From Neotamlana laminarinivorans (GTDB lineage Bacteria; Bacteroidota; Bacteroidia; Flavobacteriales; Flavobacteriaceae), in assembly GCF_020523925.1 (NCBI RefSeq), contig NZ_JAJAPW010000005.1, positions 62,001-126,000 of the forward strand: a stretch of DNA of 64,000 nt, written 5' to 3'. Positions within the stretch are counted from its first letter, which is position 1. Each line of letters starts with the position of its first letter. Both the position numbers and the translations under genes were made by a program. The notes below the pieces were generated by a model that worked only from the letters and a program-made list of their open reading frames with translations, was not told where the DNA came from and searched no databases. Positions 1 to 4,010 of this stretch are shown one piece after another.

Positions 1-105
1 CAAATAACACTGTACGAAACTCCACGAAATTTCGTTACCTATAGTGGTAAATAAAAAACTTTATAAGTTGTAAAAATAAAAAGAGTTTTATATTTATTTT
101 AAATG

Positions 106-113
106 TAATTTTG
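106..113 (+). promoter_or_regulatory. Vegetative -7 element for the 89-aa gene
   Basis: TAATTTTG matches the Bacteroidota -7 consensus TAnnTTTG. It lies 21 nt before the start codon at 135. A weak TTTTA at about 85-88 could serve as the -33 element. Confidence 0.5.
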
Positions 114-134
114 CATTAAATTAAAATTTATATT

Positions 135-404
135 ATGGCAAATGTTAGAGATTTAAAAAAAGACATAAATTATGTTCTAGGGGATATTATTGAAGCTGTT
201 TACGTATGGGAAATGGAAAATACAGATAAGGATACAAAAGAGAGCGAAGCAATAATTGATGAAGCTATTGAAACGTTTGATGTTTTAATAGCAAAAGTAA
301 ATGCAAAAGATGTAGAAACCCCAAAGGCTCATTTTAAGGCAATTAACCTTGAACTGGAAGAAAAAGGGAAGGCGTTAATAGAAAAGATTAATAAATTAAG
401 TTAA
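135..404 (+). CDS. Small conserved hypothetical protein (89 aa)
   Basis: An 89-residue acidic, helix-rich protein with no signal peptide, no cysteine and no membrane segment, so it is probably cytoplasmic. I do not recognise a named domain. It resembles short uncharacterised proteins that I recall from flavobacteria. Its ATG follows a consensus -7 promoter by 21 nt, which supports both the start and the reality of the gene. The tRNA-Thr gene follows at 465 with its own promoter, so the two are probably separate transcripts. No function is proposed. Confidence 0.75.
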   Translation: MANVRDLKKDINYVLGDIIEAVYVWEMENTDKDTKESEAIIDEAIETFDVLIAKVNAKDVETPKAHFKAINLELEEKGKALIEKINKLS

Positions 405-421
405 TTTTTTTTAGAAAGTGC

Positions 422-451
422 TTGCAAATTTAATTTTTGCGATTATATTTG
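422..451 (+). promoter_or_regulatory. Promoter of tRNA-Thr
   Basis: TATATTTG at 444-451 is a perfect -7 element. TTGC at 422-425 is a plausible -33 element 18 nt upstream. Transcription would start near 458, a few bases before the tRNA. Confidence 0.6.
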
Positions 452-464
452 CACCCGCAATTAC

Positions 465-538
465 GCCGATGTAGCTCAGCTGGCTAGAGCAGCTGATTTG
501 TAATCAGCAGGTCGTGGGTTCGAGTCCCTCCATCGGCT
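465..538 (+). tRNA. tRNA-Thr (anticodon TGT)
   Basis: A 74-nt cloverleaf. The acceptor stem GCCGATG pairs with CATCGGC, the D arm contains GCTCAGC, the anticodon stem CTGAT/ATCAG encloses a loop with TGT, and the T arm holds GTGGGTTCGAGTCCC. The CCA end is not encoded. An intrinsic terminator follows at 567. Confidence 0.97.
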
Positions 539-566
539 CAAAACACTTAAACGTGTTGCGAAAAAA

Positions 567-598
567 AACCTTTCAAATTTTAATTTGAAAGGTTTTTT
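567..598 (+). terminator. Intrinsic terminator, probably bidirectional
   Basis: A perfect 13-bp stem (567-579 with 582-594) is followed by a T run on the + strand and, on the other strand, by the complement of the A run at 561-568. It can end the tRNA-Thr transcript and the minus-strand DUF4369 gene. Confidence 0.85.
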
Positions 599-630
599 GT
601 TTTATAAGAGTTGTTTATGCACTATAGCAA

Positions 631-1326
631 TTACTCTTTTTCTTTTATTTCTTTAATAAATGCATCAAGCTCTTTTCCATATAAAGAGTTTTTTATCTCT
701 GGAGTTAGGCTTTGGTTAATAGTATCTAAATACTTTACTTGTGCATTGTAAATTTCAGAAAGTGCTAAATATGGAGCAACTTCGCTGTCTTTATGGTTAA
801 GTGCAAAATTTACAGTATATAGGTATTGCCTTTTTAATAATGAGTTAGATAATTTTATTAAAGAGTCATTGGCTATTGAATCTCCTCTGCGTTGCGCTTC
901 AAATTGTTCTTTAATAAGCTCTAAACGCTTGTTTTTTAATTTAGAAAGCATCGCTCTATATTCTTCGTATATTTCTTGTTGCTTAGAGCCTTTAATTTTA
1001 GCATCAAAAACAAAATTTTTAAGAGTTGTGTTAATTTCGGTAACTCCTTTATCAGCAAAAAACTGAATACGATCTTGTTCAGTACTTTTTTTATCTAAAT
1101 CTAAAATGAACATTTCAGGAGATTTTAAGCTTGCTTGCAGTTCAAAGTTAGAGGTACCATTTAATACAAGGCTATCTACTGTTATTAGTATTGTATCTTG
1201 TACTTTTTTTAGGTAAACGGTTCCTTTTTTTAAACCTTTTATATTTCCTTTTACAATTAAATCGTTTTCTGTTTTACCACAAGAAAATAGAAGAGCTGTT
1301 ACAGCTATTAACCAAATATGTTTCAT
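631..1326 (-). CDS. DUF4369-domain lipoprotein
   Basis: About 231 residues. The start chosen is the internal ATG at 1324-1326, because it gives a normal lipoprotein signal (MKHIWLIAVTALLFSCG, lipobox Cys) without an eight-residue N-terminal extension. The next ~90 residues (VKGNIKGLKKGTVYLKK...) match the DUF4369 domain, which in Bacteroidota usually precedes a thioredoxin/AhpC-TSA domain. Here no CxxC thioredoxin motif follows; the rest is a charged helical region ending in Lys/Glu repeats. It is therefore a DUF4369-only lipoprotein of unknown role, probably periplasmic or anchored in the outer membrane. Confidence 0.75.
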   Translation of the reverse strand: MKHIWLIAVTALLFSCGKTENDLIVKGNIKGLKKGTVYLKKVQDTILITVDSLVLNGTSNFELQASLKSPEMFILDLDKKSTEQDRIQFFADKGVTEINTTLKNFVFDAKIKGSKQQEIYEEYRAMLSKLKNKRLELIKEQFEAQRRGDSIANDSLIKLSNSLLKRQYLYTVNFALNHKDSEVAPYLALSEIYNAQVKYLDTINQSLTPEIKNSLYGKELDAFIKEIKEKE

Positions 1327-1454
1327 TAATTTTTGTTTTAAGGTTAGCAAATATCTTATAATTTAAATAATAATACTAATCGGTTTTTAATTAAATAACA
1401 CTAGGGGTTCTTTTTTTGTTAAATAAATACTAATGGAAAACAGGTTTTAAGTTT

Positions 1455-1471
1455 TTGGCACGAGAATTGAT
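1455..1471 (+). promoter_or_regulatory. Sigma-54 (RpoN)-type -24/-12 promoter
   Basis: TTGGCACGAGAATTGAT matches the sigma-54 consensus YTGGCACGrNNNTTGCW with correct spacing and one mismatch (A for C in the -12 element). Transcription would start near 1482. A 9-bp direct repeat AATACTAAT lies upstream at 1372-1380 and 1426-1434, 54 bp apart, and could be activator half-sites. No gene starts within 480 bp, but a terminator lies at 1568. Confidence 0.55.
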
Positions 1472-1481
1472 TACTAGTTAG

Positions 1482-1590
1482 TAATTACATTCAAATAATA
1501 GTTTATTGAGTGGTTACTTTAAACTTTAGATTGTAATTCAAATTTTGGTTAGTTAGTTAGATAAAAAACACCTTTTAATAAGGTGTTTTT
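1482..1590 (+). ncRNA. Candidate sigma-54-dependent small RNA
   Basis: Inferred from a sigma-54-type promoter at 1455-1471 and an intrinsic terminator at 1568-1590, with no credible coding frame between them. The predicted transcript is about 105-110 nt. The 5' end is an estimate. No known RNA family is recognised. Confidence 0.4.
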
Positions 1591-1592
1591 TT
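1568..1592 (+). terminator. Orphan intrinsic terminator
   Basis: ACACCTT at 1568-1574 pairs with AAGGTGT at 1580-1586 and is followed by a T run. The flanking A and T runs extend the stem. No protein gene ends upstream of it on either strand within 200 bp, so it implies a non-coding transcript. Confidence 0.75.
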
Positions 1593-1740
1593 ATTGGTTA
1601 GAATTAATTTTAGAGAAACATTTTAGCTTATAAATATGTTTTTTATCGATTAAATGCGTTTTTTTGATTTTAAATGTTAAAAAAAAGTACATTTCATCGA
1701 ATAACAATGTTTTTCGTCGTTATTCATGTTTTAAGAATTA

Positions 1741-1748
1741 TATATTTG
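1741..1748 (+). promoter_or_regulatory. Vegetative -7 element in an ORF-free gap
   Basis: TATATTTG is a perfect TAnnTTTG match. No clear -33 TTTG lies at the ideal distance. Transcription would start near 1755. The next coding start is 1968, after a terminator, so the product would be a short RNA. Confidence 0.45.
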
Positions 1749-1754
1749 TTGTGT

Positions 1755-1897
1755 ACTAAATAACACACTTTTTAGTTCAATGGATTAATTAATTAATATT
1801 TGCATTATGTTGTTGATGCGGTTATCCCCAAATCTAACCATCATAAGTAAAGAAGCAAATTGAGAAAAAACCGAGTTTGAGGGAACTCGGTTTTTTT
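1755..1897 (+). ncRNA. Candidate structured small RNA (~140 nt)
   Basis: The region runs from a perfect -7 element to a strong intrinsic terminator. Inside, TGAT/GGTTA (1814-1817, 1820-1824) pairs with TAACC/ATCA (1835-1843), giving a 9-bp stem with a 2-nt bulge and a 10-nt loop TCCCCAAATC. I see no credible reading frame. The RNA family is not recognised. Confidence 0.4.
1869..1897 (+). terminator. Intrinsic terminator of the second candidate sRNA
   Basis: AACCGAGTT pairs with AACTCGGTT around a TGAGGG loop and is followed by seven T residues. It lies 70 bp upstream of the VanX-like gene and so cannot belong to a protein gene on this strand. Confidence 0.85.
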
Positions 1898-1967
1898 ATG
1901 CAATAAAATCAAGTATACTAATAGGTTTATTGATTATGCCTTAATTAATTTTTAAATTAGCATTATT

Positions 1968-2633
1968 ATGACGTATAAGATTTTTATTTTAATATGTGTT
2001 TTAACTTTTAAAGGTTTTGCTCAACTTCCTGAAGGGTTTGTTTATGTAAAAGATATAATTCCTGATTTGGATGTTGAACTAAGGTATAATACAACTAATA
2101 ATTTTTTAGGAAAGCATGTTAACGGTTACTACGGTAACACTTTAATTCTTACTGAACAAGCGGCTGAAGCTTTAAAATTGGTGCAAGAAGAACTTCAAAA
2201 ACAAAATTTGTGTTTAAAGGTTTATGATGGTTACAGACCGCAGGAAGCCGTTAATCATTTTGTTAAATGGGCTAGAGTATTAGATGATACTATAAATAAA
2301 TCAACTTTTTATCCAAAGGAAAACAAAAAGAATTTGTTTAAAAACGGTTATATCGCTTCTAAGTCTGGACATAGTAGAGGAAGTACAGTCGATTTAACAA
2401 TAATTGATGCTAATACAGGAACACCTATCGATATGGGAAGTCCATTTGATTTTTTTGGACAACAATCGTGGGTTACGTTTGGCAAAATAACCAAAAAGCA
2501 GCATGATAATAGAATATTGCTTCAGCGTGTTATGCAAAAGCACGGATTTAGAAGTTACTCCAAAGAATGGTGGCATTTCACTTTACGCGGTGAGCCTTTT
2601 CCTAAAACCTATTTTAATTTCCCTATAAAATAA
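1968..2633 (+). CDS. D-alanyl-D-alanine dipeptidase, VanX/DdpX-like (peptidase M15D)
   Basis: A 221-residue zinc dipeptidase with a signal peptide (cleavage near residue 18-19, ...FKGFAQ), so it is exported to the periplasm. The zinc ligands and catalytic base are visible: H135 and D142 in SGHSRGSTVDLT, E200 and H203 in EWWHFT, with R90 in DGYRP. The spacings H-7-D-58-E-3-H are those I know from VanX (H116, D123, E181, H184, R71). The family hydrolyses D-Ala-D-Ala. Without vanH/vanA neighbours, a role in recycling cell-wall dipeptides is more likely than vancomycin resistance. It ends 3 bp from the stop of the convergent helicase gene. Confidence 0.9.
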   Translation: MTYKIFILICVLTFKGFAQLPEGFVYVKDIIPDLDVELRYNTTNNFLGKHVNGYYGNTLILTEQAAEALKLVQEELQKQNLCLKVYDGYRPQEAVNHFVKWARVLDDTINKSTFYPKENKKNLFKNGYIASKSGHSRGSTVDLTIIDANTGTPIDMGSPFDFFGQQSWVTFGKITKKQHDNRILLQRVMQKHGFRSYSKEWWHFTLRGEPFPKTYFNFPIK

Positions 2634-2636
2634 AGT

Positions 2637-3878
2637 TTAATACCAGCGCTTTTTCTTCTTTTTTGAAGCTGTACTTTTTCGTCCTTTTTTATGTTTACTA
2701 CCTGTTTTTTTAGATTTATGAACAAGAGGTTTAGCTTTTGGATCTAATGGATATGGATGTTCTGCTTCAATAGGAATTTCTAATTGAATAAGTTGTTGAA
2801 TAGTTTTAATGTAACTCTTTTCATCAGCAGAACATAGCGAATAAGCTGTTCCGGTTTTACCAGCGCGAGCAGTTCTACCAATGCGATGCACATAGGTTTC
2901 GGGTACGTTAGGTAAATCGAAATTTATAACAGCATCCAATTCATTAATATCTATACCACGTGCCGCAACATCTGTAGCAATAAGAATATTAACGTAGCCA
3001 TTTTTAAATTTATTTAAAGCATCTTGTCGTAAATTTTGTGTTTTATCGCCATGAATACTATCAACTTTATAACCGTTTTTAGTTAATGTTTGTTCAAGTT
3101 TGTTTACTCCAAATTTGGTTCGTCTAAAAATTATAATACTACCTTTAATAGTGTTTCGAAGTAAGTGTAAACATAATTCCATTTTATTACGTTTAGGTAC
3201 GTAATATAAAATTTGATTAATGTTTTTTGAAGTTGAAGAATTTGTAGCAACTTCAATACGTTCTGGAGTATTTAAAATGGTGTTGGCAAGTTGCTCAACT
3301 TTTGCAGGTATGGTTGCAGATAATAATAAAATTTGCTTTTCTTTTGTACAAAGGCGTTCAATTTTTTTAACATCATCAATAAAGCCCATGTCTAACATTA
3401 AGTCGGCTTCATCTAATACTAAAGTTTCGACATAGTCTAAATTTAGTAAATCTTGTTTGTGTAAATCGAGTAAACGACCTGGTGTTGCAATTAAAATATC
3501 GACACCTTTATTTAAAATATCTTTTTGAGGTTCTATAGATGTACCTCCAAAAATTACAGTAGATCTTAAGTTTGTATATTTTCCTAAAGTTTTAAAGTTA
3601 TCTTGAATTTGAGAGGCCAATTCTCGCGTTGGGCTAACAATTAAAGCTTTAACTTTTTTGCCTTTTTTAGGTGCATCTTGATAATCGAAAAACTTTTGAA
3701 GAATAGGTAAAGCAAAAGCAGCTGTTTTACCTGTACCTGTTTGTGCAGAAACAATAACATCTTTATTGTTTAAAACAGAAGGAATTGTTTTTTCTTGAAC
3801 CAATGTAGGGGCAAGGTAACCCGCTTCATCAATTGCTTTTAAAATAGGTTTGTTTAACTTAAAATTTGAAAATGACAT
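2637..3878 (-). CDS. DEAD-box ATP-dependent RNA helicase (RhlE-like)
   Basis: 413 residues with the full superfamily-2 helicase set: Q motif region near residue 25, Walker A AQTGTGKT, PTRELA, the DEAD box in VLDEADLMLDMGF, SAT, and HRIGRTARAG in the second RecA domain. The C-terminus is a very basic tail rich in Lys and Ser (about the last 30 residues), typical of RNA-binding extensions. It acts in the cytoplasm on RNA structure, in ribosome assembly or mRNA decay. A TATCTTTG -7 element (reverse strand, 3893-3900) lies just upstream of the ATG. Assignment to the RhlE branch rests on overall look, not on an alignment. Confidence 0.93.
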   Translation of the reverse strand: MSFSNFKLNKPILKAIDEAGYLAPTLVQEKTIPSVLNNKDVIVSAQTGTGKTAAFALPILQKFFDYQDAPKKGKKVKALIVSPTRELASQIQDNFKTLGKYTNLRSTVIFGGTSIEPQKDILNKGVDILIATPGRLLDLHKQDLLNLDYVETLVLDEADLMLDMGFIDDVKKIERLCTKEKQILLLSATIPAKVEQLANTILNTPERIEVATNSSTSKNINQILYYVPKRNKMELCLHLLRNTIKGSIIIFRRTKFGVNKLEQTLTKNGYKVDSIHGDKTQNLRQDALNKFKNGYVNILIATDVAARGIDINELDAVINFDLPNVPETYVHRIGRTARAGKTGTAYSLCSADEKSYIKTIQQLIQLEIPIEAEHPYPLDPKAKPLVHKSKKTGSKHKKGRKSTASKKKKKRWY

Positions 3879-3892
3879 ACAAGAATTTTAGG

Positions 3893-3900
3893 CAAAGATA
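3893..3900 (-). promoter_or_regulatory. -7 element of the DEAD-box helicase gene
   Basis: On the reverse strand this reads TATCTTTG, a perfect TAnnTTTG match, 14 nt upstream of the ATG. Confidence 0.5.
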
Positions 3901-3955
3901 CGGTAAAGAAAGTCAATTTGTTTTTAATTCAATTTAGGTTTTAAAATATCCAAAT

Positions 3956-3985
3956 AAAAAAAAGCCATCTTGAATAGATGGCCTT
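3956..3985 (-). terminator. Terminator of pruA
   Basis: GCCATCT (3964-3970) pairs with AGATGGC (3976-3982) around a 5-nt loop. On the reverse strand it is followed by a run of eight T. It lies just past the pruA stop. Confidence 0.85.
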
Positions 3986-4010
3986 TATATATAAAGATAA
4001 TTGTTATTAA

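Follow-up and report, generated by a model that had tools for sequence, protein, structure and literature searches.

Sigma-54 promoters carry GG at positions -25/-24 and GC at -13/-12, with ten bases between them. Small RNAs transcribed from such promoters are known from the Pseudomonadota, the Qrr RNAs of Vibrio, GlmY/GlmZ and CrcZ among them, while MicA, RybB and CpxQ are small RNAs of the envelope-stress response. The Flavobacteriaceae dominate marine polysaccharide turnover, and the regulatory RNAs of Bacteroidota outside the gut Bacteroides are almost uncharted. Within Bacteroides, the GibS/FopS family has an unpaired conserved seed and a terminator, and contains intergenic members and one member derived from a 3' end (PMC11697453). 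FopS, about 65–70 nt long, is induced by bile salts and has a housekeeping promoter and its seed (the unpaired seed R1 of that RNA) at the 5' end; GibS has a different, non-canonical promoter (PMC11697453). In Flavobacterium psychrophilum, where the sigma-54 regulon has been mapped, the putative regulatory RNA Rfp36 has a mapped start site of the sigma-54 type (SM4), and in strain OSU THC02/90 a sigma-54-type promoter of the remF operon was verified by mutation (PMC9723704). The view taken in a preliminary description of the present locus, that sigma-54 regulons of Bacteroidota are poorly mapped, is therefore partly out of date. Besides Rfp36, a literature search found no other sigma-54-driven RNA reported for the phylum.

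The sequence analysed here, called the window, is a stretch of 64,000 nucleotides from Neotamlana laminarinivorans (contig NZ_JAJAPW010000005.1, positions 62,001 to 126,000). Judging from sequence comparison, positions 1454–1592 very probably form the gene of a sigma-54-dependent, trans-acting small RNA (Table 1). Like Rfp36, this would be a putative regulatory RNA with a sigma-54-type promoter in the same bacterial family. Its stem-loops, unpaired conserved stretch and intrinsic terminator recall Qrr and the other sigma-54 small RNAs of Pseudomonadota, and as with Qrr-type RNAs some genomes contain several copies; however, these copies are in tandem instead of dispersed, the phylum is another one and no sequence relation is claimed. 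With GibS/FopS it has in common that it is a small RNA of Bacteroidota with an unpaired conserved stretch and a terminator, but its size and architecture set it apart. The likeness to MicA, RybB and CpxQ lies in a logic that we infer, a non-coding arm of an envelope-stress regulon made partly of mRNA 3' ends; the sigma factor is different and homology is absent.

Table 1. Coordinates of features in and around the predicted small RNA gene, numbered from the first nucleotide of the window.
Feature	Position	Strand	Basis or remark
Divergent lipoprotein gene (DUF4369)	631-1326	-	Pfam PF14289
Direct repeat AATACTAAT	1372-1380, 1426-1434	.	Chance-level
Sigma-54 -24/-12 element TTTGGCACGAGAATTGA	1454-1470	+	GG 1457-1458, TTG 1467-1469
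Small RNA, predicted, ~111 nt	1482-1592	+	R1/R2 models, fold z-score, covariation
Outer stem AATTACA 1483-1489 / TGTAATT 1532-1538	1483-1538	+	Two-sided changes
Hairpin AGTTTA-TT-GAGT-GGTT-ACTT-TAAACT, conserved GGTT loop	1500-1525	+	Helices 3-5 of covariation test
Unpaired U/G-rich linker AATTTTGGTTAGTTAGTTAG	1541-1560	+	Candidate pairing seed or protein site
Intrinsic terminator AAAAAACACC-TTTTAATAA-GGTGTTTTTT	1563-1591	+	Terminator search; covariation

The intergenic gap is 78–81% identical in three congeners. In their alignment, long parts of the RNA up to the terminator are unchanged, and the sequence separating the promoter from the divergent gene is variable. When 397 genomes sampled from the family were searched with R1, a covariance model built from the transcripts of four species (one sequence each) without the promoter, 111 genomes from 78 of 237 genera gave matches; the strong matches taken further comprise 79 copies from 71 genomes and 46 genera. 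A second model (R2), built from a 76-copy alignment, finds matches in 206 of the 397 genomes at an E-value of 0.001. Since chance terminators are among the weakest of them, we rely on the R1 set. Ten matches were obtained in a phylum-wide sample, all of them inside the Flavobacteriaceae, and the weaker ones are unreliable. L109 and L114, two weak matches that R1 had not given, are real, as judged from their sigma-54 site and linker, and differ in the 5' half. Matches in one large genus (g128), which are located at gene ends and are devoid of a sigma-54 site, were not established as members. In a search of window positions 1–4000 with E-values up to 5, Rfam 15 contained no match to residues 1454–1592.

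The predicted RNA consists of an outer stem enclosing a hairpin whose loop is exposed, followed by a single-stranded linker and the terminator hairpin, and has a fold z-score of -3.1. The outer stem is lengthened inwards by ATTC/GAAT in many species, and eight of its ten pairs show changes on both sides in the sequence-only alignment of 76 loci. In helices 3–5, which form the hairpin, some 92–97% of cells are paired, and the letters of GTGGTTAC are at least 90% conserved among the 76 copies. The linker, seen in the fold in the forms UUUUGGUUGGUUAGUUAG and TTTTTGGTTGGTTAGTTAG and containing the stretch UUUUGGUURGUUAGUUAG, is better conserved in the same alignment than any other unpaired portion of the RNA. 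The terminator has 97% of cells paired and two-sided changes in eight of 12 pairs; the region contains three terminator-like sites, with 0.9 expected. For the 76 copies together, 23 pairs have changed on both sides against 12 expected from shuffles, two-sided cells number 145 against 48, and the covariation score is 0.230 against 0.153. None of 500 shuffles reached the observed measures, and slid controls gave far lower values. An RNAalifold structure calculated from the first four sequences was partly wrong, with stem 1 paired to GTGGTTAC, and has been superseded by the 76-sequence fold.

The preliminary description had placed an intrinsic terminator about 100 nt beyond the promoter with no coding frame between, and on both points it holds: the terminator is where it was predicted and contains compensated base pairs, and residues 1482–1592 have no open reading frame of 30 or more amino acids on the plus strand. 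A coding function, with a short conserved peptide as the product, is barely credible; apart from the length of the stretch nothing speaks for it, and besides the lack of a reading frame, homologues frequently differ by insertions and deletions of one or two bases, and the base pairs covary.

At the promoter, the same description had seen a near-perfect RpoN element with correct spacing and one mismatch, and TTGGCACGAGAATTGAT is indeed present at residues 1455–1471, with the GG-N10-G pattern, exact spacing and A for C at -12; from this spacing, transcription is expected to start around residue 1482. By its letters the element is not beyond chance, because the window contains seven sites with up to two mismatches where 6.9 are expected, and the genome 13 strict sites where a reversed control has 14. 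The strict-site count was for this reason rejected as evidence, an excess being present only between genes: eight of the 13 strict sites are intergenic against about 1.4 expected (binomial P ~1e-5), an expectation based on an intergenic share of about 10%, estimated for the window. Most of the eight lie a short distance before genes for exported proteins or lipoproteins, and one precedes dnaK. What lifts the promoter above chance is this intergenic excess, together with its presence upstream of the homologues. In 76 of the 79 strong matches, TTTGGCA-N6-TTG, in the form TTTGGCA[CT][AG]-N4-TTG, is found within 60 nt upstream; one of the other copies has a mutated element and two, in the middle of tandem arrays, have none. 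The distance to the RNA is constant, most loci having the element some 25 nt ahead of the RNA as modelled. In the corrected congener alignment, TTTGGCAC..G.ATTG is identical letter for letter; a lack of conservation among close relatives, which the preliminary description had named as a refutation, was not observed. The base following TTG in the 76 homologues is T in 41%, A in 29% and C in 25%, and is also found as G, so that the supposed mismatch is no mismatch in Flavobacteriaceae. RpoN is encoded in the genome (PF04552, E 1.2e-52) and in 394 of the 397 family genomes; co-occurrence with a gene so nearly universal is uninformative and was dropped as evidence.

Upstream of the element, no conserved activator site was found; the only enriched words are AT-rich ones and the promoter block of the divergent gene. 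The block, GCAAATATCTTATAA (around 1347–1361), is conserved in the congener alignment and across genera and is probably the promoter of the lipoprotein gene. The direct repeat suggested as possible enhancer half-sites does exist, but the suggested role found no support and was dropped. Of simulated 93-nt sequences with the same composition, 34% contain a repeated 9-mer, the second copy of AATACTAAT is missing in one of the three congeners and in most other genera, and the first copy sits where an upstream promoter element of the divergent lipoprotein gene would be.

The genome of F. psychrophilum DSM 3660, picked out with a species-specific 16S primer, has the sigma-54 pattern before dnaK, skp and genes for lipoproteins or exported proteins, the base that follows TTG being A, T, G or C. 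At its dnaK and skp, too, the -12 C is absent, and in strain OSU THC02/90 both genes have mapped start sites of the sigma-54 type (PMC9723704). By their published start sites, groES and Rfp36 should lie 26,966 bp from each other (PMC9723704); in DSM 3660 the groES site TTGGCATAATTTCTG and TTTGGCATTACTTTTGC are separated by 26,959 bp, which locates Rfp36. The sequence following TTTGGCATTACTTTTGC contains none of the conserved RNA blocks and R2 gives no match there at E-values up to 10, so homology to Rfp36 was rejected. A sigma-54-driven small RNA, expected to be new to the phylum, is thus not strictly new in kind, since the unrelated Rfp36 had been reported, but the family is. Of the R2 matches in F. 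psychrophilum, the best one (L150, E 0.003) contains GTGGTT and, before a terminator, TTTTTTGGTTGGTTA; it has a sigma-A-type TACTTTTG box and no sigma-54 site, and is possibly a distant relative under another promoter. RNA-like stretches with GGGGTGGTTCCC, TTTGGTTGGTTA and a terminator were observed at residues ~1505–1640 of L150 and, in another genus, at ~1520–1650 of L113.

Such a more distant match with a sigma-A box, and the existence of tandem copies devoid of the element, would fit a real and conserved RNA transcribed by the housekeeping sigma factor, with TTTGGCA-N6-TTG being the site of another DNA-binding protein. We consider this unlikely: the window has no TAnnTTTG box at the right distance before residue 1482, the distance between element and RNA is constant, and the element is the same as that at dnaK and skp, with their mapped starts of the sigma-54 type. 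Comparison establishes the promoter class, by conservation and by identity with promoters of mapped starts, and also the fold and the terminator of the putative sigma-54-dependent small RNA; promoter element, fold and terminator are kept in at least 46 genera while the letters drift.

The locus is syntenic. The left neighbour is the DUF4369 lipoprotein gene in 38 of the 71 loci and a membrane-protein gene in 27, while the right neighbour is a D-Ala-D-Ala dipeptidase gene in 44, an AlkB-like gene in 24, or another gene. As 44 of the 71 loci have the dipeptidase gene downstream and in the orientation of the RNA, the stretch might be read as the 5' leader or a cis-regulatory element of this gene. 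This is very unlikely, given that a strong conserved terminator ends the RNA, that many loci contain, behind it, a second RNA closed by a terminator of its own and that in many loci the nearest right-hand gene is opposite in direction. Six genomes have two to four copies in tandem. In these (L072, L082, L083, L086, L088 and G348), the copies are arranged head to tail, about 165–235 bp apart, and most have their own -24/-12 element, which is lost in the middle copies of L082 and L088. Comparison of the loci shows that the predicted small RNA gene has been inherited vertically at one syntenic locus, with local tandem duplication.

A U/G-rich element the same as or similar to the linker is also located just before the terminators of protein genes. 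In the genome, four genes with a sigma-54 site had a readable 3' end (L093 to L096), and three of the four bear the element: the L094 gene, which has a strict site, ends with ATTTTGGTTGGTTAGTTT and a terminator, the L096 gene with ATTTTGGTTGGTTATTTAGTT and a terminator, and the L095 gene with a weaker version, TTGGTTTAAATTAGTTAGTT, while the L093 gene runs directly into the next gene. For the L094-type gene, the site TTTTTGGCACGCTGTTTGT and the 3' element are both kept in four species of two genera. A DUF2383 gene carries the module of the small RNA tail without a visible sigma-54 site. The link is suggestive and not proven, because the element had already been spotted when it was put to the test, and no more than four ends were readable. 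Sharing of the element between the small RNA and genes with sigma-54 sites hints at an RNA branch of the envelope-stress response. Among the side observations, an exported, R/N/S/T-rich protein of about 390 amino acids without a Pfam family (L197, L217, L233 and L245) is encoded, in four species belonging to two genera, by a gene that is preceded by an invariant TTTTTGGCACGCTGTTTGT and followed by ATTTTGGTTGGTTAGTT plus a terminator; in three species (residues 1455–1520 of the plus strand in L193, and L194 and L195), the DUF2383 gene has TATTTGGTTGGTTAGTTAGTTTGAAAAA plus a terminator at its end.

The element is rare: the genome contains 17 copies of the motif GGTTRGTTAG, most of them within genes. 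Its complement CTAACYAACC shows no excess over a control pattern in seven genomes, and the matches examined in four genomes are mostly inside genes, with none recurrent near start codons. Recurrent intergenic matches were rejected as targets, since they are copies of the linker element itself, read from the opposite strand at the 3' ends of genes.

With modest confidence, we favour the linker as the acting part of the RNA. In the proposed mechanism, RNA polymerase with RpoN, activated by an enhancer-binding activator, would start at about residue 1482 and stop at the intrinsic terminator, and the transcript would fold into the outer stem with its exposed-GGTT hairpin, the unpaired UUUUGGUURGUUAGUUAG and the terminator. 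As flavobacterial sigma-54 drives chaperones and envelope or exported proteins, the RNA may be made under protein-folding or envelope stress and may constitute the non-coding arm of this regulon. It would act through GGTTGGTTAG and the GTGGTT loop, candidate contact sites for pairing with mRNAs or for an RNA-binding protein. Since this stretch, or one resembling it, also precedes the terminator of three mRNAs with sigma-54 sites, the 3' ends of these mRNAs may act alike. We put forward tentatively, as possible but short of probable, that the RNA arm is regulon-wide, the small RNA and several sigma-54 mRNA 3' ends sharing an exposed UUUUGGUUGGUUAGUU module before their terminators and having common targets. 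If so, each sigma-54 burst would free an RNA family with one shared seed or protein site, suggesting how the flavobacterial response to protein-folding or envelope stress could down-regulate genes.

The occurrence of the element before terminators of protein genes and RNA alike, and the lack of a recurrent complementary target in the matches examined, would also be explained if the unpaired UUUUGGUUGGUUAGUU, instead of serving as a pairing seed, marked the 3' ends of the small RNA and of mRNAs alike, for instance the site of an RRM-type protein or of a nuclease-protection factor. This alternative deserves serious attention, though we consider it less likely than not: the GTGGTT loop is conserved independently and would not be needed by a pure mark, and only few gene ends bear the element. 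For the small RNA itself, which is easily detected and tied by its predicted promoter to a defined sigma factor, start, stimulus and targets are open to study in tractable relatives.

Directly downstream, a second RNA was observed on the plus strand at residues ~1755–1898, even better conserved than the first and without a match in Rfam. It has a TATATTTG box at ~1742–1749, and it contains GTACTAAATAACACACTTTTTAGTTCAATGGATTAATTAATTAATATTTGCATTATG and, further on, AAGCAAATTGA, followed by a ACCGAGTTTGAGGGAACTCGGT terminator at ~1868–1898. Among the loci with enough space for it, about 40 keep it nearly letter for letter. The block preceding it (~1672–1764) contains, in this order, AAATGTTAAAA, ATTTCATCGA, TTTTCGTCGTT and TATATTTG, and recurs in the genome at residues 1495–1590 of L014, where it precedes a transcript-like stretch in which AAATCTACC and TTAACCAAA are repeated several times and which is also present in three congeners.
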